From Ectocarpus siliculosus (Eukaryota; Sar; Phaeophyceae; Ectocarpales; Ectocarpaceae), in the NCBI GenBank assembly GCA_000310025.1, contig FN649751.1:2830787-2894786 (forward strand): DNA of 64,000 nucleotides. Direction: 5' to 3'. The first letter of the stretch is position 1. The number at the start of each line of letters is the position of its first letter. Below the pieces are notes generated by a model. The model searched no databases. It was not told where the DNA came from and saw only the letters and a program-made list of their open reading frames with translations. Both the position numbers and the translations under genes were made by a program. This document shows, piece after piece, positions 23,472 through 64,000 of the stretch.

Positions 23472-25663
23472 CTGAACACCTCGTGTCAGGAACGGTGACA
23501 ACGGTCAGTGAAGGCGCATCCCGTTGGGGTTGGGTGGCTACGTTCACCCACACCCACGCATCTTCTGGTTCTATTCCGACGGCGAGGTCTTCGTTTTTCA
23601 GTTGGCTCGAGGTCGCGCGGTAGATTGGCGTGGCTCCGCGGAAAATTGTCCGTTGTGTCTTTTTTCAGAGGTAAACATCGGCACACGGGGAGACATTGTT
23701 GTGCAGTGGTGAGGACGGGTAGAGCGTAGTTTCGAGCACGGCAATTCGTTGGGAATACTTGCGGTACAAGAACGACGCTATTCTACAGCATGGGTTTGAT
23801 GCTGTATTGTGAAGGCGTTGCCACGTCTGCAACCGTCACAGGACAGCTTGGGCGTCTGTGTGTAAATAGTGACATGTGTTTTCGTTATCGCATCACATGC
23901 CAGCTACTTCACTGTAGAGCGACGGCAGTGACAGCAGTGCAATTGCTTAAATAACAGGTTTGAGTCTTCGTGTTGCACGAGACTTTGCACACCCGAGTAG
24001 CAAGAGTAGGTCATCATGGCCATCGGCTTGTCAGGCGACGAGATCCATAGAGGATTCGTCAAGTTCAGCGGAGATCCAGGCGACTACATCGGCTGACGAG
24101 ACCTTCAAATCTCCGTATTTAGGGAGGACAACTCCACAAGGTCCTGTCGGGAGCGGAGACTGCCCCGACTGATCCCGGAACTGGAGCTACGACGACACAG
24201 ATTGCCGCTTAACCACAAGGCGCTGGAAGAGTGCCAGAACAAGAGCGGGATGACCTTCAACCCCCGACTTATGCTCGCTACGTCCGAAACTGGGGGGCCT
24301 CACAAGTCGTCCAGGCCTACGCTCCGGTTGGGTCGGACTGCAACAGGGGCGGTTGTTGCGGAGCATTCCTCGCTCTGGAGCGAAAATATGAGGCCGCGGG
24401 GTTACAAGCACCGTACCCAGAGCTGCACGAGCAATTCATATCCTTGGCAGTGACTGCCGACCAGGATTTCAACCCAGCACGCGTCATCCAAGACCTGCGC
24501 CGGATCTGCACAGTTTTCGTTCCTGAAAGCTCTGCCCGAAGAGCAGTACGAGGCGTAAACAGGGCTGCTGTGCGGCCTAGCTTGCACTGGAAACGCTGGG
24601 AGCGTCTTTCCATTTGAAGACATCACCAACCGGGCCACCATGTTCCATGCTGCTGCTGCTGCCGCCTTCTCTGGCGGCGGCGGCGGCCCTCCCAGTAACG
24701 GCAGTATGGTATGGAAGGTGGTGTGGCCCGATTGGTAACGTCCTCGAATGGCAAGATCCTCCCAGTATTTCCAGTGGGAGCTTGGCCGCACGACAGTCTT
24801 GTTTACGCCTTGTAGTTCTCGTCGGGTTGTAGAGCTTTTACGAACGAAAAGGTATTCCTGTTCTTTCTCGTTACTCTCCTTAGAAGCTATGACGAGAACA
24901 AAGAGTTGCGTAAAGAGTATCAGCGTCCCGTCGCTCAGACCTCACGTGCTGTTGTATGTGCCCCGTCACGCTATCACCAGTCACCATTTTTCGTTGCTCG
25001 AAGCGAAGTAGAGGCTCCTTCACGTGGACACAGCTGGAGGCTTGAGCTATGGGGCCAATGCATGAATATCTGGCAATCGATCATCCAGGCAAGAGAAAAA
25101 AGAAGAGATCAGCCGCCGGCGATGGTAGACGACAGCAAGAATCAGTCCATATAGACATGGTACACAAGAGACACAAGAGCCAAGATTGCTTCAAGCACTA
25201 CCATCACCCAGTCGTTCTCCTGGTGCAACACACATTCCGTCAGCCCCTCCTTCTTCCGAGCCATTGACGACATGAGCCAAAATCAACGGCCGTGTAGACG
25301 AGGTATCTTGGGCAGCTGGATCCAGATCTTGTACAGCTGACGACGAAGCCAGTAGAAACGGCCCATGCCCGGCTGCGAGAAGTCCAAGCGTCAGTATTCG
25401 CCGCATGCCTACATGTAACATTCTCAGCTTCATCCCAAGCATGGTGACTCTGCGAGCGCACACGCACTGCATCCTGCGTAGAGTGTAAAGACGGGGGGGG
25501 GGGGTGAACCGCGCGGCGTAACCAAACAAAAAATCCCATCAAGTTGCACTGGAACACCTTGATCTTGTTTCGCCGCACTGCGACGCATGCGACATACACG
25601 CTCCTGTAGCTCCAGCCTAACGCTTGGCACCAGCATTGCCTTATACATGTCCACGAGAGAAAT
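23472..25663. other. Upstream region of GT41 and AlkB genes with retroelement-like debris
   Basis: Divergent interval of about 2.2 kb. The stretch 24010-24640 on the plus strand contains short protein-like pieces (RGFVKFSGDPGDYIG, ELHEQFISLAVTADQDFNPA, FLKALPEEQYEA then TAA) in shifting frames, consistent with a decayed gene or gag-like fragment. No reverse transcriptase or integrase motif is visible. Missing GT41 5' exons may lie at 23480-23700. Confidence 0.4.
24513..24852. repeat. Imperfect inverted repeat, about 130-bp arms
   Basis: Arms 24513-24640 and 24720-24852 are reverse complements at roughly 75-80 percent by eye. Shared words are AAAGCTCT, AGGCGTAAACA, TGTGCGGCC.AGCT, CACTGGAAA and GGGCCACC. 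The 79-bp loop contains GCT and GGC triplet runs. Both arms encode the same peptide end and the same in-phase TAA. Confidence 0.75.
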
Positions 25664-28600
25664 ATGAACCCTCACGCCTGTCTGCTGGCCGTCCTCATCA
25701 GTTCGGGACTGGCGCGATCACCGGCCTTCCCAGTGCAACCTCCAGTTCAAGCACTCTGCCACGCGCCTCCGGACGTCACGCCGGCGGCCCACGACCGCCC
25801 GTCGCCGCTAACGAGGATGCACGCTCGCCGTGGAGGGAAGGGACGCCGAAGAGGTAGAACAGGCGTTAGTGGCTCTCCCCGTCGAGCTGGTGCAGCTGCT
25901 AATGCTGTCAGGGAGACGCCGTCCACAGCTGCTGCGCTGGCCGCGCTCGCCGTCCAGCACGCTTCGCATGAAGACCTCCTCGGTGTTGCGTACAGTCACA
26001 GGGCAGCGCTGAGACCTGGTTTGCTTTCCCAGGCCCTGCTGAGGTTGGCGAAGGTGAGTGAGCTCCGCGTCCATCGCGCTCGTGTGTGCTGTTATGAAAC
26101 AGCGTCTCTGTATACTGCTGTAGCTGCTGTGCAGAAGTTCGGCTGGAAGTTTAAATTTCCATCGATACGGCATCAGCAGCTAATCCGACAGACAGGAGAC
26201 TTCCTTTCCGCTTGACACATAGAACAACGGAATGTTTACGACCACTCCCATCCCGCACCGCCGGTCCTAACAACAACTTATTTCGCACGCTTGCAGCCTC
26301 TCGTCCAGGTCTCCAGGCAGACCGCAAGGGAAGCCGTCCTCGCGGACCCACGGCTGCAGGCCCTCTTCCTGGCAGCGTCCTCGCCGGCGGCCGCGGACGG
26401 CGGCGAAACGGCGGCGGAACCAGCAGCAGCAGGTGGCACCAACCAATCCCTCTCGGGACCCCAGGCGGCCGACGTCGTGTGGGCGTGCGGCTTGCTCCAG
26501 TGGCTCCCGGCGGACGACGACGACGGTGCCGCCGCTAGTGGTGGCCACCGCCGTCTCGCCCAGCTCGTGGCACTTGTCGCGCGAGCAGCCTCCTCAAAGG
26601 TCGGCATCGACGATGGCCACGTGACGAACGTGCTGTGGGCGCTCGAGCGATTAGGAGTCTCGAAATCACCGGCGGAGAAGAAGAGGAAGAGGAAGGCATG
26701 CGAAGCAGAGGCCGCGCGGGGGGCAGAGACGCCGATAGCAGCGCCCGGCTGTGGGGCGAAGGCGGCGGTAGAGACGGAGGGGAAAGGTGGAAGCGGGGGC
26801 GGGGGGGTATGGGAAGGCGACGAGGCGGTGGAGGAGCTCCGGAGCAGGGTCGAGAACCTTCCTTTCCGCGCAATTCCGTCGCTGTTTGAGGGTCTGCGAG
26901 TCGAAGACTTCAGGGACGAGGTGGCGTTCCGACGGGACGAGATTCTTCTCGGCGGTGGAAAGGTGTGACATCTCTCTCTCGCTGTAGCTTGGACGCGCTG
27001 TAGGGCTTTTTTCGGGCATGAGCGGTTGCTCTTGCTCAGCACCTCGAGTTATATGCCCGCTTCGATTGCAAACATCGTGCGATTTTGTGTGTGTTACCAT
27101 CCCCCCATCAAAGCTGGATGTTAGTTTTTACACGTGCCAAGTGTGCTTTCTGGACGCGCCGGCGGGGGCCACAGAGGGGAAAGGCCACACAAAACTGTTT
27201 CTCTTCACGTTCCTCTACACGTATCATATGTAGTCCAGTATCGGGTGGATCGCTAGCAAGCAGTTATCGTCATGGGAAAGAAGTGACTCGTTTGGTTGTC
27301 GATGCGCCGAATCTACATCCGTGCATCCCATTTCGCTGGAACGTTTTGTGTGAGTGCTTCGTGTTGTTTTTCTGTGACAAAGAGCGTGCCCAAAGCGTTG
27401 GCGGCAAAGCAGATTCTCTCTGAAGCCACAACCGGACCTGCTGGAACTACGCTGTGGTGGGCAGGCACATCCATCTCGACTCAACAGAGGCTCGAGTCAC
27501 CGCTCCCGTACTACCACGCAGTCTCCCTGCCTGTTCTATCACACGCGCCCACACACTGCGCTTTGCACGCTCCCGGCTAGATAATGGAAAGTGCACCAAA
27601 AGACAACCAAGTCCACTTCGTTGTACCCGCCGTTTTATACCGTTTGTACTGCGTTTTTTTTTTTTTTATGTGCCTGCGCGGATGCGTTGTGACGGCGCAG
27701 GTCCTCTCCGAGTCCAGGCTCACGGCGTGGCAGAGTAGCGACGGCCTCCCCTTCGCCTACAGCGGGAAGGTCATGGAGCCTACGTCGTTCTCGCCGAACG
27801 TGCTCCGCCTTCGCGACGCCCTCTACGAGCGGACCGGAGTGCTCTATGACGGGGTCCTGCTTAACCTGTACGAGTCCAGGTACGACCCGCCTATTCTCAT
27901 TGCGCGCGCGCGCACGTTCGTTCTCGTTGTTTGCAGCCGAGAACGCGCCGTGCGTGTGCGAGGAAGAAGCGTGTTCTGACGAACTGTTTTTAGACACAGT
28001 GTCCCTCGCGGGTGGTGAGTTTTGTGTTGAAGTCTCCTACGCCCACAAGAGGGCGAAGCCCAGTTTCGCGTACGGCGTGCTTGAGAGAAGCGTGCGCATG
28101 GTTACACTCGTTGTTGTTGTCGTGCGTTGTTTTGGAGAGAGTGGCTCTGTCGGGTTCAAGGGTTGTCGTGGTTTTGCGGGGGGGCAGCGCAGCCATGTTA
28201 TATCTAGGTGCATTTGAAGCCACTTGATGCCAGTTTCACCACAAAGCAAGAGCGGCGCGATGCACAACTCCTCCATGCGGACACTGCAGCATTCGCAGGC
28301 ACGTATAGGATGACCGCACACGCGCACACATACCCCCCCCGCTGACGTCAACATGACCCTCTACGCCCCCTCGACTGATCCCCCCCTCCTCCCCGCTGCC
28401 CTACCGTCCGTGGCGACCCTGCAACAGGTCGAGCGCCATGCGATACCACTCCGACCCAGACGTCGGCACAATCTGGACGCAGGACACGTCGGTGGTGTCG
28501 GTGGGGGACACGCGGCAGTTCGCCCTACGCCGGACCCTGGACCACTCCCCGCGCGGGAGGCACGCCTTCTACCTCTCTAGCGGGGACTGCGTGAGGATGA

Positions 28601-28800
28601 CGGACGGGTGCCAGCGGGACTACCAGCACTGCGTGAAGGTCGCCAAGGAGGAGGTCGGCGCGAGGATATCGCTCGTGTTCAAGCAGAGCATCTCGGGCCG
28701 GGAACGGAGACGGGGGGTGGCCGCTGAAGGCGTTGCTGTCGGTGGCGGTGGTAGTGGTGGTGGCTCTGGTACTGCTGCAGACATCGCGGAAACACCCTAG
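25664..28800 (+). CDS. AlkB-like 2OG-Fe(II) dioxygenase with N-terminal helical repeats and putative plastid presequence
   Basis: Four exons, 25664-26053, 26297-26962, 27701-27879 and 28428-28800 (TAG), join in phase (0,0,2) to 535 residues. Residues 1-27 form a signal peptide (LLAVLISSGLA) followed by RSPAFPVQP, resembling the ASAFAP cleavage motif of heterokont plastid proteins. Residues about 80-260 carry degenerate helical repeats with VVWACGLLQWL and HVTNVLWALERLG, as in OPR/FASTK-type RNA-binding proteins, then a low-complexity linker. From about residue 325 an AlkB fold follows: RRDEILLGG, RLTAWQSSDGLPFAYSG, VLLNLYESR, YHSDPDVG (iron ligands His and Asp), CQRDYQHCVKV (distal His) and ARISLVFKQ (2-oxoglutarate Arg). 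All expected active-site residues are present. AlkB enzymes demethylate nucleic acid bases; an RNA substrate in the plastid is inference from the architecture. The Gly/Ser-rich C-terminus is probably disordered. Confidence 0.87.
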
Positions 28801-28896: not shown

Positions 28897-29678
28897 AGAC
28901 ACCACAAACAGCGGGGAGGTTGACTTGATGAGGTAGTTGTGTTTGAAGGGGATATTTCTATTGATGAATGGCCGTAGGCGTGATGAGGAATTTGTTCTGT
29001 GCTTTTGGTTTCGTATTACTTTTGTTTTGCTATCTTGTGTATCTTGCCGCAATTGACTCATCACATTGTTTTTGTTTAGCGTAGTGGTTCCTACGGCATG
29101 CCCAGAGGCCTGTCTGTTCCTCCCCCGATTGGTGCTTTGCACTGAACGACGAAAATTTATTGTTGCATTTTCTTCTTGTGTAGCTGGGACGGCTAAGTTT
29201 ATTTTGTTGTCTTATCTTGAGCCGTTGTCGGATGTATCCTGAGCGCCAAAAAAGTTTGACGCGGAGGGGGATTTATGTTGTCTCGCCTTTCCGTTGCGAT
29301 CACCGTAGAATCTATGATCTCCGCCGGGCACCGCAAGTGGTAGCTATGTTCGGGGGGTCTCCGCGCGCGATTTTTGGCGTTTTCTTGCCTTCCGGCTGTG
29401 CTTTTAGGACGAAGGCAGGGCTGTTGTTGCGTTCCCCGCGATTGCGTAGTTTTGTGTGGGAGATGCACACGGGGTTTTGGTTTTTGCGAAGTTCTTGGCC
29501 GTAGGGGACAGGGTTCCTCTTCTTACCATGTAGACATGCTGGTTGACTAAGGTCGTGGGAGTGTTGGCGCCGTGCCTCTTTGGCTCGTCGCTTTTTTTTA
29601 GCAGAAAAGCCAAAGAGGCTGTCGGCGTGTTTACTACAAGTTCTCACCTTGTTCCCCCCGCCCCCTTGCACCCGGGCG

Positions 29679-29890
29679 TCTCGAAACTGTTTTCCTGGTT
29701 GTCGGCGCTAGTGGACGAGGCCGCCTGCGCGGTGGGTCTTGCCATCTCCCGCGGGATGAGTTGGACCGCCTCTTGGGAAGCTACCAAGAGGCAGTGGAAC
29801 TCATCCCGCGCGCGAGGTGACAAGACCCACCGCGCCAGCAGGCGGGCACTTTCACATGCCTCAAATAGCCGGGGAGACCGTTTCGAGACC
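29679..29890. repeat. Long imperfect foldback hairpin, possible small-RNA precursor or MITE
   Basis: Inner arms of about 60 nt, 29721-29778 and 29784-29844, pair almost throughout around a loop of about 5-7 nt. Matching words are GGTGGGTCTTG with CAAGACCCACC, CGCGGGATGAGTT with AACTCATCCCGCG, and CCTCTTGG with CCAAGAGG. Outer flanks extend the fold to GTCTCGAAAC (29679) and GTTTCGAGAC (29881). A few bulges and mismatches interrupt it. No ORF or terminal-repeat transposase is seen. Confidence 0.8.
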
Positions 29891-41746: not shown

Positions 41747-44700
41747 TCACCCCTGGTGCACCCAGAGCTCCAGCCACGGCCTTTGTTCCAGCAAGCGGTC
41801 GCCCTTCCTCCGCCACGTCTCCACCGCTTCGGCCGTGACCAGACCCGCGAGCGGCGCGAAGCGCTCGGCGCCCACTTTGTCCCTGACGGTCTCCGACCAA
41901 GACGTCCGGGAACGCGCCCATCCGCACGAGGTCCCTCGGGGTTGACACCGACACTTCTTCCAACGCCTGGCGTTTGCGTGTTAGGTTGTGCCGCGGCGCG
42001 AGGATATGGCAGCATTGGGTAAGGATACAGCAGCAGCATGGGGTTTCCAGGATGAGGGGGCTCGGCTTTTGGGGGTAGAGAAATGAAACATACGTGCCGA
42101 ACACTTGCCAGGCCTCTTGTGACACCAAGAGGAGACTTAAGAGAGGTAAAGGATAAAAACGCACGTATGTCCAAACGAAGCCCCAACAAAAAACGAATTT
42201 AGGAGAGAAACCTCGGCAAAAGGAAAAAGGGGCTGCTTCGGTAAAGGTAGGAAAAATAAAACAAACCCCACGACCCGAGGGGGGGAAATAAAGCTGTACC
42301 ACACATCATATGCATACAAACCTCGATCACGTCCTCGTTCCCTCCGACAATGTCCGCCATGATCTCATCCAGCTCCTCCCCCCTCGCTCCCTGCACCCAC
42401 TCGGAAACCTCCTCCGCGGTGACCCTGGCCTTCTCTCCGCTGCCACTGCCGCCGCCGCCGCCACCCGCACCTCCATCTGCCGCCGCTCCTTCCCCGGCAG
42501 CAGGCCCTTCGCCGGCATCTCTCTCTTGCTGCTGCTGCTGCTGCTGCAGGGCGGCCAGCTGTCGCGCCAGGTCCTCCTCGTCGCGATCGGCAAGCTGCCC
42601 GAGCGTCCTCAGCCCGGCCGCCACAAGAAGCCCGGCCCCGGGCTCTCCCGCTACCTCCACCAAACCCTCCATGTCAATCTCCTCCTCTTCCTTCTCCTCC
42701 TCCTTCTCCTCCACACCATCCCCGTTTTCTTCTTCCGTGGCAGGCACAACCGGAGCTACCGTTACCGCTGCCGCCGCCGCTGACCCTCCGGCCGCCGCCG
42801 GTGCCGGGCGCCGCTGCGACGCGGTAAGCCTGGCGAGGGCGGCGTTGGCGGCCCGACGACGGGCGTCCGCCGCCGCCGCTGCCGCGGAAGCGGCACGCGC
42901 TTCCTCCGACACCTCGTCGGCTGGAAGAGATTCCGCCGCGTGCGGCTGCTCTTCTTCTTCTTTTTCTTCTTCGGACGAGTCCGTCTCGATGCCCTCCCTA
43001 AGGCGCGATAGTTCCGGGTGGGACGGTATGTTCGTTACAGGGGCGTTTATTTCGTGTACAATAGGGGGGGGTTGACTAGAGACGAAGTCGGCGGGCGGCG
43101 GCGGCGGCGGCGGGAAAGCGGGTGGGTATCATCGGGAAATGAGGTCTCTGCTGCCGCCGGAAATTGGGCAACACCGAACCGCAAGAATTTTACAACTTGC
43201 AAAAAGACCAGCAGCCGCTTGCGATACAATTGGTGTTCTTGCCGTGGGTAAACCATCCCATATTCACAAACGGAAACCACTTTGAAAATGCCACCAGGCA
43301 TCGAAGCCGCGAAGACGGACGTGAGAGGCGTGTAGGCTCGACAAATCTCGCACGCGAACAGACTGCACGTAAGGAAAAAGAGTGACAAGCACAATCACCA
43401 AATTATCAAGTCCCGAAAACGAGAAGGAACAAACAGCGTGTATTAACCCCGGCACACCCGAAAACCCCATTATAGTAGGCCAACAACCCCCTCGAAACTC
43501 ACTTTCTCCTCTTCCTCCTCTTCCTCTTCCTCTTGGCCCTCGCCCTCTCCGCCCGCTCGTCCTCCGCCTCCAGCCGCTCCGCCTCCTCCGCCGCCGCGTT
43601 CGCCACCGCCTTCTCCGACGGCTTCCTGTCCCTGGTCTCCACGAAGCCCCAGTCCACGTCGGGCGCGGCGAGGCGGAGCGCCGCCGGGACGTCGCCGCCC
43701 CAGTGCTGCACGAGCGACCAGAACATGCGCGGGCTGCAGCCGGCGAAGTTGTGGGGCTTGAGCATCTCCCGGGACTCCGGGTCGCGGGCGATCATGCGGA
43801 CCACAGCGGAGACTTGCTCGCGGGGGATGCGGTCCACGGTCTCCTGTAAAACAATAAAAAGAGGGGAAAAAGAAAAGAAACAGAAAATTTAAAAAGTAGA
43901 CTGTTAACACAAAGTACGCTTTCACACCGGGAAAAGTAGTACAGTAGTGGTAGGAAAAGCTGTAGCTCAAGCTCTACCGCCGTGTAAGGACATCTACGTA
44001 CGCGAAGCGCAAATCCCGTAGATTGTTGTCTCACTACCGTACCGCAGGCGAAGAAAAAGGTGGGGTTGTTCCCGGTGCCACACACATAACTAGTAGCAAA
44101 AGACCACGGCCCCGATGTTGTTGTTCCTGCTGCATCCTACTACTTGTCAGTACTGCACAGTAGGAGTACAATACAACGCGGTAGGAGATTTTCAGATAGG
44201 ATTGGGTGTGCGGAGATTCGCTGTCCCACCGTCAGCTGGCTCTTGGCACCGGCTCCCTTTGAGAACGATATGTCGAGAGCGACAGACTCGCCGTCCCCCA
44301 GCCGCCGCTGCGTCGCACTGGCCTCCGCCGTGTACCAACCGCCGAGGGCGGCACGTACACGGGCATCTGTTGTTTCGTTCACAACACAAATGTTGATGCG
44401 AGCGAGGGGGGGGGTGGGGGTGGTACTCATGTTTTGCACTCCCTACCGGGTATTTAGGCCATTGACCATACGTGCTCGAGAGGATGGAGCAGTGTTCGCA
44501 CAGGACCGATCACCGATGGTCAATCGATCCTTCCGACGAGCGATGGGGGGGGGTACCGGTATTGGTTTACCTCGTGAATTCTGATGGAAACGAGGAGGGG
44601 TCCGGGGTAGAAGACTACACGAGCTGTTTTTGAAAGGCGACGCCAATAAAGTCTCACCCGCCCGGCTCTGGTCGTACTGCTTGTCGACCGCAAGCTTCAT

Positions 44701-53299: not shown

Positions 53300-56200
53300 A
53301 TGGCGAGGAGCGCAGAGGTGTTCTGTTGGGGATCGCTGAACCCGGTCCCTGGCGAAGAAAATCCAACCCCCGTCGAGGCTGGCCGAAGGGGCCTCGAGGC
53401 CGCCCGAGTTTGCGCTGGGTCTGGGCGTGCTCTGCTCATTGGCGCGAAGAGCGCCACGTGGCTTTCGGGCCAAGATGGGTCCGGCGAGGATCCATGGGAT
53501 GTGCCGGGGATAGAGTGTGCGGCGTTCGGTCAGAATCACACGCTGTTGCTGCACAAGGTTGCGGCAACAACGGAAGGAGACTGCGCCGACGACGCTGGGA
53601 GTGAGACGAAGACAGAAGTTCTCGCATGGGGATCGGGGGGACAGGGTCAGGTAAATGAAATAAATGCATATTGAAGAAACTCGTACAAGGGGGGAGACAT
53701 GTCACCCATGCCATATTGTTAGTGGTTCATGTGGTCGTCTCAAAAGTGGTTTACAGCCGATCCTTCTTCTATATCTCTTTCAAGCTTACCGCCAGTGAGC
53801 ATGCAAATAACTCTTCATTCGACAAGCGGACTCCCTTCAAGACTGGTATCCACATGGATCTCACAATATCATGATGAACATTTTTACTTTGTTTGTGTCA
53901 CGGCAGGGGATGCCCATGGATAAGTCCAAGGACACGTCCACGCACGTACGTCGGCAGCGGTCCGTGGACGTCCGTGGCCACGTTCGTTACTGGATGAATA
54001 TTCCCCAATTTCCCCCAATTCCCTCACTTCGGTCGATGACTGAAACCCTCGGTAAAAAGCAGAAAACCCCACCGAAAACCTAAATAGTCACCGCCGGCAG
54101 AAGGATACAGGTCGCTGTCCGAGGTGGTTAGGGCTGCGTTCTTCAAGGGCAAGGGTTGGTCTTTTAAGCGTCCACGGCAAGTTGCTCACATGGTCTTGAT
54201 GCAGATTTGCGTGCTTTCGACAAGGTGCAAAGGCATACTGGCCGTAGTACCCAGTGTCAGCCGTAGGCCGTGGCCGCGGGATGATTGGAACGTGTCAATG
54301 CACCAAGACACTTCGACACCACAAGAATAAGTTGAAGATTCGCATTCCAACGTGTAGGTTACCAATCTCGCCAACGATTTTCGTCGTATCCAGTATGGGA
54401 CACGTTCTACATAACATCCTCAGGAAGGAACGATGATCACAGAGAGGTCACCTGAGGTCCTCTGAAGTGTCCATGGACTCATCCCCAGACGTGTCAAACG
54501 GGCGTCCAAGAAAGGCCATGAGCACGTCCACAGAATGTCGGACACACGTCCAAAGTACGTAAAGGCAAGAAGACCAATCAATACAATTACACGGTTCTCC
54601 AGCCCGCTGTAAAGTGTCTATCGACATGGCACAACTTTTCCGCTCTGTGTTGTTCGGTTTTCAGCTGGGCATCGGCACCATCACGCTGGAGAGCGAACTC
54701 CCGAAGACGATTCCCGCCCTCAGCGCCTACCGCGTGCTACAGGTGGCATGCGGAGCGCAGCACTCCGCAGCCGTCACCTCCTACGGCGACCTCTTCACCT
54801 GGGGCCGAGGGACCGAAGGGCAGCTCGGGCACGCAAGTCGACACCTCCCGCCCGAGCTCAACGACGCCATCACCGGGGTACAACTCCGCCCCAAGCCCGT
54901 CCCAGCCTTCTTGGCGACGAAGAAGCGCCAGCGCCCGGTAGCGGGGGTGTCCTGCGGGGCGAATTTTACGTTGGTTGTGACCCGTGCGGGGGAGGCTTGG
55001 GCCTTTGGCGGGGGCGCCATGGGGCAGTTGGGCATCGGACGGGTGACCAGCGTCGGGGTTCCGAAGATGGTGATGCCGTCGTGCCCGGCTACGGGAGAAC
55101 CGTTTGTCGAGGTCGCTGCGGGGTGGTCGCACGCTCTCGCGAGAACTTCGGGAGGAAGGATACTTTCTTGGGGTTTCAACGCGTTGGGGGCGCTCGGCTT
55201 GGGGGACCACCGCACCCGCTTCTTGCCGGAAGCGGTGCCACTAGACGGCTGGCAGAAGCAGCAGCAGCAGCAACAGCAACCAGACGAAAAAGGTGGAGGC
55301 TGTGGTAGCAATCCATTGAACAACCCCCCCGCGGCAAAGACAGCAAGGATCACCGCCGTCAAAGTTCACGCCTGCGGAAACTGCTCTGGCGCGTTGTCGG
55401 CTGACGGCGAGCTCTTCACTTGGGGATGCGGCAGAGCCGGTGGTTTGGGGCACAGGGGTGAGGGCGAAGGTCAGTATGGTCGGCCAGAGAGAGTGGAGCA
55501 CGTACTGCGGCCGCGACGAGTGGAGCGACTGGTTGGTGCGCAAGTCACAGACTTTGCGCTGTCGAACAAAGGCGGCGTGGCGCTCGTCCCGCCTCGTGTG
55601 GCATCGATCGAACCGGCCTCGGGACCAATGGAGTCCGGATGTAAGGTTGTCATCAAGGGGTACGGATTTTGGGACTCGAAGGATATTGTGGTGAAGTTCA
55701 CCCCGGTCTCGAAGGGGCACAAGCCGTCGGCGTCGCGATCTGCGGTGGGGACGTACATGCCGCGGGAGACCGGTCAAGGCGGGGTTGAATTTGTGACGTG
55801 CACGGCACCGTGCTTTGCGTCCCCAGAGGCAGCGTATGTTGAGGTGGGGAGAATGCCCTCATTGGTAGAAGAGCGGATAAGAACCGACAATGCTGCCTCG
55901 TGGTAGGGCTCCGTCCGATTGGACGACGGTCACCACCAGGGCCGTCGTCGGTTTACCAGCACATGCGTTTTAGGCCGTTGGCAATACACTCGATGAACGA
56001 GAATCACGTAGTGACCTGTCAAAGAGGCAGTCACGCCGCGCGCATATGAGCCCACCCCTCGCGGTATTGCTCATATTTGAGGCCCAAAGAGTCATGTGAG
56101 AGCCCGGTTGCAGGAAATCGTACGTTCGTCACGGCTACAATGGGAATTACCGTGATCATGCCCTCGACCCCAGCTCCCCGAAATAGTCCGGGAGTTGACA

Positions 56201-62190: not shown

Positions 62191-62378
62191 CCCTTTGACC
62201 TTACACGAGGTTTCCCGGCAAGACAATCATCGAGTGTTTTTTCGCTTTGGATGTGGACAAACTCACCACGGGAAGCAACTCAAGTGAACGCCTATTTATG
62301 TGCACAGGAGACAGTACTGTGACGAATCGATCGCGCGCCTCGCACGACATAGTTTGAACATCACTCAATCGAACTCAC

Positions 62379-62975
62379 CAGCCGGTACTTGTGTCTCATG
62401 TCGCGCTCCTGTGCGGCCACTCTCTGCCTCATCTCCGCCTGATAGTTGATCACAAACTGCGGGTACCCGTCAAAGAACGGATAAGGCCCAACCCTAGGAA
62501 GCGGTTTGAACTCCTGAGGGGCTATGCGAAGCAAAGCTAATGCCGCCATCGCCTCGCCCACATCTGCACCATCGCTGTCCACTTGACCTCCCAATCTTTC
62601 GGGTTGTTGAACGTAACTCGACACCTTCTCCATCACCCGGAAAATCCGTTGGAGGTCGGAGGTCGAGGGTGACTGCCGCCGCCTAAAGAAGGCTTCAGCC
62701 TCCTCGGTCGACTCCAGGACAAGCAGCTGCTTCCGAAAGGAAACCATGAAGCCCACAACGGCAGCCTCGAGAAGCTCAGGCTGGTGGGCGTTCGCCAGAA
62801 TGCGATCGATGAGACACAGCCACTCCTCCCGGGCTAGCACCTCCGAGAAGGCACTACGCAGCAGGGGCCACCCGTAGGATAGCGCTCCGACGCTCAGGGA
62901 CTTGAGGTGGGCCGCGAGCTCCCGATCGGCGCGTTGTAGCGCGAGCTCCATCCCTGCTAGCACCGGCACGGGTGG
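62379..62975 (-). CDS. TBC1D31: TBC1D31-like Rab-GAP, one internal exon (partial gene)
   Basis: A 199-codon exon on the minus strand lies between a TTCCCGCAG acceptor and a CTG|GTGAGT donor. It reads LAGMELALQRADRELAAHL, GWPLLRSAFSEVLAREEWL, CLIDRILANAHQPELLEAAV, EAFFRRRQSPSTSDLQRIF, PYPFFDGYPQFVINYQAEMR and QERDMRHKYRL. The order (LL..LFSEVL.REEWL..., FF..R, YP.F..YP.FI..YQ, charged helix) matches the end of the TBC domain and the start of the coiled coil in TBC1D31/WDR67, a centriolar-satellite Rab-GAP linked to ciliogenesis. Upstream WD40 and TBC exons lie beyond the right edge. If the donor is not used, a TGA follows after five residues (VSSIE), which would end the protein early; retroelement copies occupy the sequence just downstream. 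Confidence 0.85.
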
Positions 62976-64000
62976 CTGCGGGAAGGTTACCAGAAGCCGC
63001 GACCCCCAGTGCAAAAAAAAAGACACCGCCGCCTCGAAGGCTCCTAGGTCGTCCTATTTCAACACGGGAATACACGGGGGCGGGAGAGAGCGGAGAATTG
63101 GTTCGTAGCATACAGTAGTTGTGCGTGTTCTGGCACCGGGGTGCGATCGTTTTCCAACAATCATCCTCTCCACGTCGTTCATCGCACACGGGTGCCGTAA
63201 CACCGAGGGTGCGGGAATACCGATACCGGTGCGGGAATGCCATCAAATCATGCCGCTCTTGCTTTTTTTTGCGCCCCCTGGTGCCATAATCCCGATGGGT
63301 GCGAAATCACGGATTGGTGCCAGGCACAATTAATTACGGGACGCGCTGCACCTTCATCAATCAGTTGCCGAGTGCGGGAGGGTGCTATGAGGTCCGCACG
63401 ATTGTTTATGTGTGATGCCTCGACGAACTACAGTAACTCTTTGATGTGGTATGTTACAATTGTGCACACAGGGAAGCATAGACCCAAGGCACCAACCGTT
63501 GCGCGCGGCTTCCCATGTTCTAGTTGTTTGCAGTCTCCTGCCGGGGTACTGCTGTGGTATGGTCTGATCAATATGCTGTTAGTTGTTGCATGAATAAATG
63601 TTGTTTGCAGTCTTGAACGAAACAACTGCGAAACAAACACCAACAACGCCTGCCTTTGGCTCTGCAGCAAGTAGCCTCGCCGTCAATCTACAGTACAGGC
63701 GACCAACACGTCCGCCGTCCATCATCAAACATCCTGTTTTCAAGCCAGGCACTGGTCGTGTACTTCATCATGTCAAGCACTTGGGGGCGGACGTGAACCG
63801 AGAAGGGTGTGCCCGCGTTTGGGAACTTTTAGGCGACCGTTCAGCAAAAGGGTGACCTTCCGTACGAGGTGCAGTCTGCCAGATTGACGGACGGCTGCAG
63901 CAGGACGTAATTGTACAGACAGACGGAGTTTCTAGCGGTTAAATGACTGTAACCTACACAACACTCCTGGCTAATATTCCGTGCCGCCTTGACACTTCTT
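62976..64000. other. Probable intron of the TBC1D31-like gene at the right edge
   Basis: There is no exon signal in this kilobase on the minus strand. The part 63140-63330 contains short degenerate repeats (GTGCGGGAAT, GGTGCCATAA, GGTGCCAGGC). No coding exon on the plus strand is supported. Confidence 0.5.

Follow-up and report, generated by a model that had tools for sequence, protein, structure and literature searches.

ALKBH3 and ALKBH2 are alkylation-repair enzymes, and neither a presequence nor helical repeats are known from them. Here, we describe a gene (25664..28800, + strand) in which an AlkB domain appears to be preceded by both. The gene lies in a 64,000-nucleotide stretch of Ectocarpus siliculosus DNA, positions 2830787-2894786 of the 7.08 Mb contig C26, within a 189.5 Mb genome of 492 contigs; this whole stretch is referred to as the window, and all locus coordinates are given relative to it. 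We consider that the gene, referred to below as the AlkB-fusion gene, is a nuclear gene for a probably plastid-imported, ALKBH2/3-like AlkB dioxygenase with a short alpha-helical arm in front, which resembles octotricopeptide repeat (OPR) and HPR proteins, and give this reading a probability of about 0.5.

Among the described AlkB homologues, AtALKBH1D of Arabidopsis is located partly in the chloroplast, similar to the location proposed here, but is named for the ALKBH1 group, whereas the domain studied here is ALKBH2/3-like; no helical repeats are mentioned for AtALKBH1D in the sections of that report on which we rely (PMC3265494). The same sections list stramenopiles among the groups that have ALKBH2 and 3, with no mention of a helical fusion, and the brown-alga footnote of the table refers to FTO (PMC3265494). 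ALKBH9B/10B erasers were reported in microalgae, in a paper whose main text contains neither "plastid" nor "chloroplast" (PMC11312118), and the portion used of a catalogue of OPR proteins of Archaeplastida contains neither "AlkB" nor "stramenopile" (PMC13126933). A search of the open-licence literature yielded no paper on AlkB together with octotricopeptide, on stramenopile AlkB architecture, on a plastid-targeted diatom AlkB, or on Ectocarpus together with octotricopeptide, and, judged by title, no description of an AlkB fusion to a RAP domain or PPR. In the part cited here, a 2021 review called both the erasers and the readers of plastid RNA marks entirely unknown (PMC8394491), and in the corresponding part of a 2024 review knowledge of chloroplast demethylases is still called incomplete (PMC11594162). 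An organelle-RNA repeat type and an AlkB enzyme in one protein would make a concrete candidate for a plastid RNA eraser; if this is true, plastid transcripts of brown algae would carry a reversible or repairable methyl mark.

Gene structure

The gene starts with an ATG at 25664 and comprises four exons; all three introns have GT..AG borders and compatible phases, and a single 535-aa frame runs through to 28800. Exon 1 (25664..26053, aa 1-130) codes for the presequence and the start of the helical region and ends at a GTGAGT donor; intron 1 (26054..26296) is 243 bp long and in phase 0. Exon 2 (26297..26962, aa 131-352) codes for the repeats, a basic low-complexity insert and, probably, the start of the AlkB domain. 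It is separated by the 738-bp, phase 0 intron 2 (26963..27700) from exon 3 (27701..27879, aa 353-411 plus 2 nt), which codes for the AlkB core. Intron 3 (27880..28427; 548 bp, phase 2) is followed by exon 4 (28428..28800), with the catalytic half of the AlkB domain, a low-complexity tail and a stop codon at 28798-28800.

The claimed frame was the best of six in 4/4 exons, scoring 0.04, 0.30, 0.23, and 0.22 bits per codon for exons 1-4, respectively (exon 1 was the weakest and only just positive), while with the same codon table all six frames were negative in each of the three introns. The table was built from three open reading frames (ORFs) of the same window and is rough, since at E up to 0.01 only one of these (RCC1) could be given a Pfam identity. 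There is no Met among the 222 residues of exon 2, and an upstream exon is therefore required; exon 1 matches by phase. The original prediction for this locus, made from the letters alone, had proposed four phase-matched exons, and the splice borders, phases, uninterrupted frame and in-frame coding bias all agree with it. Its statement that a presequence-like start, helical repeats and AlkB are found in one frame was likewise borne out at the level of the gene model. Such a combination of domains in one gene model is plausible and unusual.

The AlkB domain

Compared with Pfam, the whole protein matched a single family, PF13532 (2OG-FeII_Oxy_2, where 2OG is 2-oxoglutarate), over aa 334-496, with an E-value of 1.1e-12 and a score of 49 bits against a curated cut-off of 31.2. 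The domain thus belongs to the AlkB superfamily by profile, as had been expected. Shorter pieces of the protein also matched PF03171, another 2OG oxygenase family (24.6-25.4 bits, cut-off 23). The nearest PDB sequences were those of ALKBH3 (from E 6.7e-11), followed by ALKBH2 (from E 4.2e-8), with identities of 30% and 25%, respectively, over the aligned stretches; the alignment with ALKBH3 is gapless across the intron-3 junction.

Active-site residues were compared in an alignment of four sequences: this protein, the aligned stretches of ALKBH3 and ALKBH2, and a bacterial AlkB (L018). The HxD iron ligands His419-Ser-Asp421 in YHSDPD (28447..28455), the distal iron ligand His479 in YQHCV (28627..28629) and Arg491, at the first of the two arginine positions in the 2OG motif of AlkB proteins (28663..28665), correspond to H85, D87, H145, and R157 of the query and are invariant in this alignment, in which the N-x-Y motif is kept as well. 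The homologous dioxygenase domain, the HxD...H triad, the first 2OG arginine and the N-x-Y motif are therefore features shared with ALKBH3 and ALKBH2, and we regard the AlkB identity of the C-terminal part as firm on the basis of profile and alignment. A departure that counts against the proposed reading is found at the second arginine: in place of the RxNxTFR of ALKBH2/ALKBH3 proper the protein reads GARISLVFK, with Lys497 (28681..28683) where the ALKBH2 and ALKBH3 stretches and L018 have Arg, and this lysine is unique among the four sequences. Because the first arginine is kept and the second is a lysine, the domain is named ALKBH2/3-like, and not ALKBH2 or ALKBH3. By the same token, the active site had earlier been called complete, which is too strong: the iron triad and the first arginine are present, but the second arginine is not. 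Together with HSDPD in place of the HSDDE of ALKBH3, the lysine could indicate an AlkB fold with little or no catalytic activity, retained as an RNA-binding or sensing module. We consider this very unlikely, since all three iron ligands, the first arginine and the N-x-Y motif are kept in the four-sequence alignment.

The junction between exon 2 and the AlkB exons

The combined gene model would be wrong if two adjacent genes, one for an OPR-like protein (exons 1-2) and one for an AlkB protein (exons 3-4), had been joined by mistake. Exons 3-4 alone scored 50.2 bits with PF13532 and began at profile position 55 (of 194), which is where the AlkB match of a separate gene would have to start. When the end of exon 2 was added, the match scored 52.3 bits and extended from profile position 19 onward, while addition of a hand-scrambled exon-2 end gave no gain (50.0 bits, from position 53). 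In addition, MAFFT aligned the exon-2 end with the bacterial AlkB L018, and the phases of the introns fit. These results argue for one gene, and perhaps, though weakly, for a start of the AlkB domain in exon 2; the probable N-terminal part, aa 334-352 (26906..26962), is where the Pfam match begins. Speaking for two genes, exon 2 contributes no more than about 2 bits to the match, intron 2 has a length of 738 bp, and BLASTP of exon 2 alone against the AlkB L018 gave no match, the last point also being at odds with the proposed reading. On the exon-2 side of the junction, the ALKBH2 alignments cover just the last two or three residues. Overall, a false joining of two genes appears improbable.

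OPR/HPR-like helical repeats

To describe the repeats, an 18-column matrix for helix A was built from 16 hand-aligned units of mL115, mL123, ASA2, and the RAP gene of this genome (contig C3); when the repeats of the latter gene were compared with the PDB (E up to 10), only ASA2 (E 0.055) and mL115 (E 0.18) matched, both weakly. Two units were found in the AlkB-fusion protein. Unit 1, LSGPQAADVVWACGLLQW (aa 182-199; 26450..26503), scored 21.3 bits, and unit 2, IDDGHVTNVLWALERLGV (aa 234-251; 26606..26659), scored 19.7 bits; with a matrix from solved structures only, the scores were 18.9 and 18.8 bits, respectively. In 5000 shuffles of aa 1-330, the best score was reached once and the second score never (the highest second score being 14.1). 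With an earlier version of the matrix, the two units scored 14.1 and 14.1 when ASA2 was left out, and 20.5 and 19.2 when mL115 was left out. Further candidate repeats at aa 80 and 116 (5.6 and 5.4 bits) were left uncounted.

As a control, the matrix was applied to 1181 ORFs of at least 60 aa from the window and 21 loci, some of which overlap one another; loci L001, L003, L010, and L011, which overlap this gene, were excluded. Two matches above 6.4 bits were present only in the AlkB-fusion gene and in the OPR-like locus L020, and the highest score outside AlkB-fusion and OPR-like genes was 11.8, in a bacterial contig. As a positive control, the matrix was applied to three places in the genome that had been picked through an OPR consensus query: it detected four units in L020 (C33) and three in L021 (C3:4359k), at 10.7-31.6 bits, and missed the third, L025 (C7), where it gave nothing beyond a 9.3-bit match to low-complexity sequence. 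L014, L020, and L021 are OPR-like repeat genes of this genome, one of them with a RAP domain.

Several results weigh against an OPR/HPR assignment. A search of the genome with the OPR consensus did not return the AlkB-fusion gene among the six best-candidate matches, and the AlkB-fusion protein scored just 7.4 bits (bias 12.1) with a hidden Markov model made from the same units. No repeat family was matched in Pfam (E up to 10) or NCBIfam, and no PDB sequence matched the repeat part at E up to 10. Clear units are limited to two, 52 aa apart, compared with several bihelical units in tandem, each of 37-40 aa, in the family, and a long low-complexity insert follows the second. An AlphaFold2 model of exon 2 alone, calculated without relatives, has helices at exon residues 54-68 and 106-118, i.e., at both units, plus others before, between, and after them; its confidence is very low (pLDDT 41.8, pTM 0.22) and it therefore proves no fold. 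According to the part of PMC12691811 cited here, OPR and HPR repeats lack a strict consensus, which goes with difficulty in detecting them, and the repeat assignment is limited accordingly.

With these points considered, the evidence for OPR-like units from the matrix scores is good. The protein shares the W-A-x-x-x-L-G type of helix A, in two units, with OPR/HPR proteins (mL115, mL123, ASA2, and RAP proteins), and differs from them in having only two clear units, no RAP domain, no match to a library profile, and an attached enzyme. Repeats of "LWALERLG" type had been predicted here, and this holds in so far as two helix-A units stand out from shuffles and ORF controls; the profile and structure libraries do not recognize them. 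Of the proposed "OPR/FASTK-type" identity, the OPR half is supported by the matrix. The FASTK/RAP half was rejected, since neither FAST_1/FAST_2 nor RAP profiles were matched in Pfam at E up to 10, and OPR/HPR is, by sequence, a better comparison for the repeats than FASTK.

Putative presequence and targeting

The protein begins with a signal-peptide-like segment, MNPHACLLAVLISSGLARSPA (25664..25726), with a hydropathy of 3.27 over ACLLAVLI and a supposed cut before F22 (SPA/FPV). Among the 40 residues after the predicted cut, six are Arg/Lys and two are Asp/Glu. Heterokont plastid proteins show high conservation of Phe after the cut, with Ala at -1 and -3, according to the portion used of a paper by the authors of HECTAR (PMC2567999). 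A signal-peptide-like start with an ASAFAP-type Ala-Phe motif, as had been anticipated, can be seen, but the motif is not rare: the same rule of a hydrophobic stretch followed by Ala-Phe was passed by 8/220 first-ATG ORFs of the window, the AlkB-fusion gene included. This frequency, and the Ser in place of Ala at -3, lower the confidence in the presequence. We consider that the protein has a fair plastid signal, and that the plastid is the best guess for its location.

Possible function

We infer plastid location, RNA binding, substrate, and activity of the AlkB-fusion protein from its domains. A bipartite presequence would direct the protein through the secretory route and on to plastid import. 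The helical arm would hold single-stranded organelle RNA, or a partner bound to RNA, near the active site, where the Fe(II)/2-oxoglutarate centre would hydroxylate N-methyl groups on bases, which would then be released as formaldehyde. An organelle RNA "eraser" with an OPR-like arm and an AlkB domain in one polypeptide is a tentative proposal, and one we would call rather unlikely. The original prediction went further and had the enzyme "guided by its own RNA-binding repeats"; guidance is not supported as such, because two recognizable units are too few.

The protein may instead be an organellar or secretory-route enzyme for repair of alkylated DNA or RNA, like ALKBH2/3; its helical part would then be an arm that makes no choice of RNA, either a degenerate scaffold or a site of protein binding. 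Such an arm would fit the low number of clear repeat units, two, and the long low-complexity insert behind the second, and the nearest solved relatives are ALKBH3 and ALKBH2; because these are repair enzymes, we rate repair and regulatory demethylation as about equally likely. We regard a repair enzyme of this kind as possible, short of probable.

Relatives and other AlkB genes

The plastid-imported AlkB dioxygenase proposed here is probably not the only AlkB protein of this genome. Among the best candidates, at least eight PF13532 matches were found on five contigs, C13, C26 (this gene), C459, C16, and C19, those on C16 and C19 falling below the cut-off. The exon pieces on C459 include MGWHS..., DDEKELEKGAAIASVSLG, WQHRVPK, and RINLTFRR and, by reading of these pieces, appear to represent a more canonical ALKBH2/3-like gene. 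The AlkB-fusion protein is therefore probably not the sole such enzyme, and the C459 gene could cover housekeeping repair.

Searches for relatives elsewhere lent the proposed reading no help: none was confirmed in viral contigs (0/17 and 0/11 pattern stretches), and in bacterial and archaeal genomes one was confirmed in 76 pattern stretches. The latter is L018, a single-domain AlkB of a Pseudomonadales metagenome-assembled genome, which says little on descent because it was found via a short shared peptide. A search of the genome for a paralogue of the helical part gave one weak match, on C54 (E 0.285), over the low-complexity insert.

Surroundings of the gene

Upstream of the AlkB-fusion gene, at 24535-24826, there is an inverted repeat with 104-nt arms that are 80% complementary and 84 nt apart, MITE-like by look (MITE, miniature inverted-repeat transposable element). 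Nested inverted repeats with arms of 32, 27, and 21 nt lie downstream, at 29678-29889.

Elsewhere in the window, an ORF at 54563-55903 (+) contains RCC1 repeats (PF00415, PF25390) and, behind them, a TIG/IPT domain. An ORF at 42202-43128 (-) has a DUF4332 match slightly below the cut-off (22.1 versus 23.2 bits), and a sub-threshold Rab-GTPase-TBC match is located at 62364-63053 (-; E 0.0097, 16 bits versus a cut-off of 25.2). In line with a brown-alga origin, the EsV-1-7 cysteine motif (PF19114), which is expanded in brown algae, had no match in 14 control genomes and at least 150 in this genome, where 150 of 880 candidates were scored.
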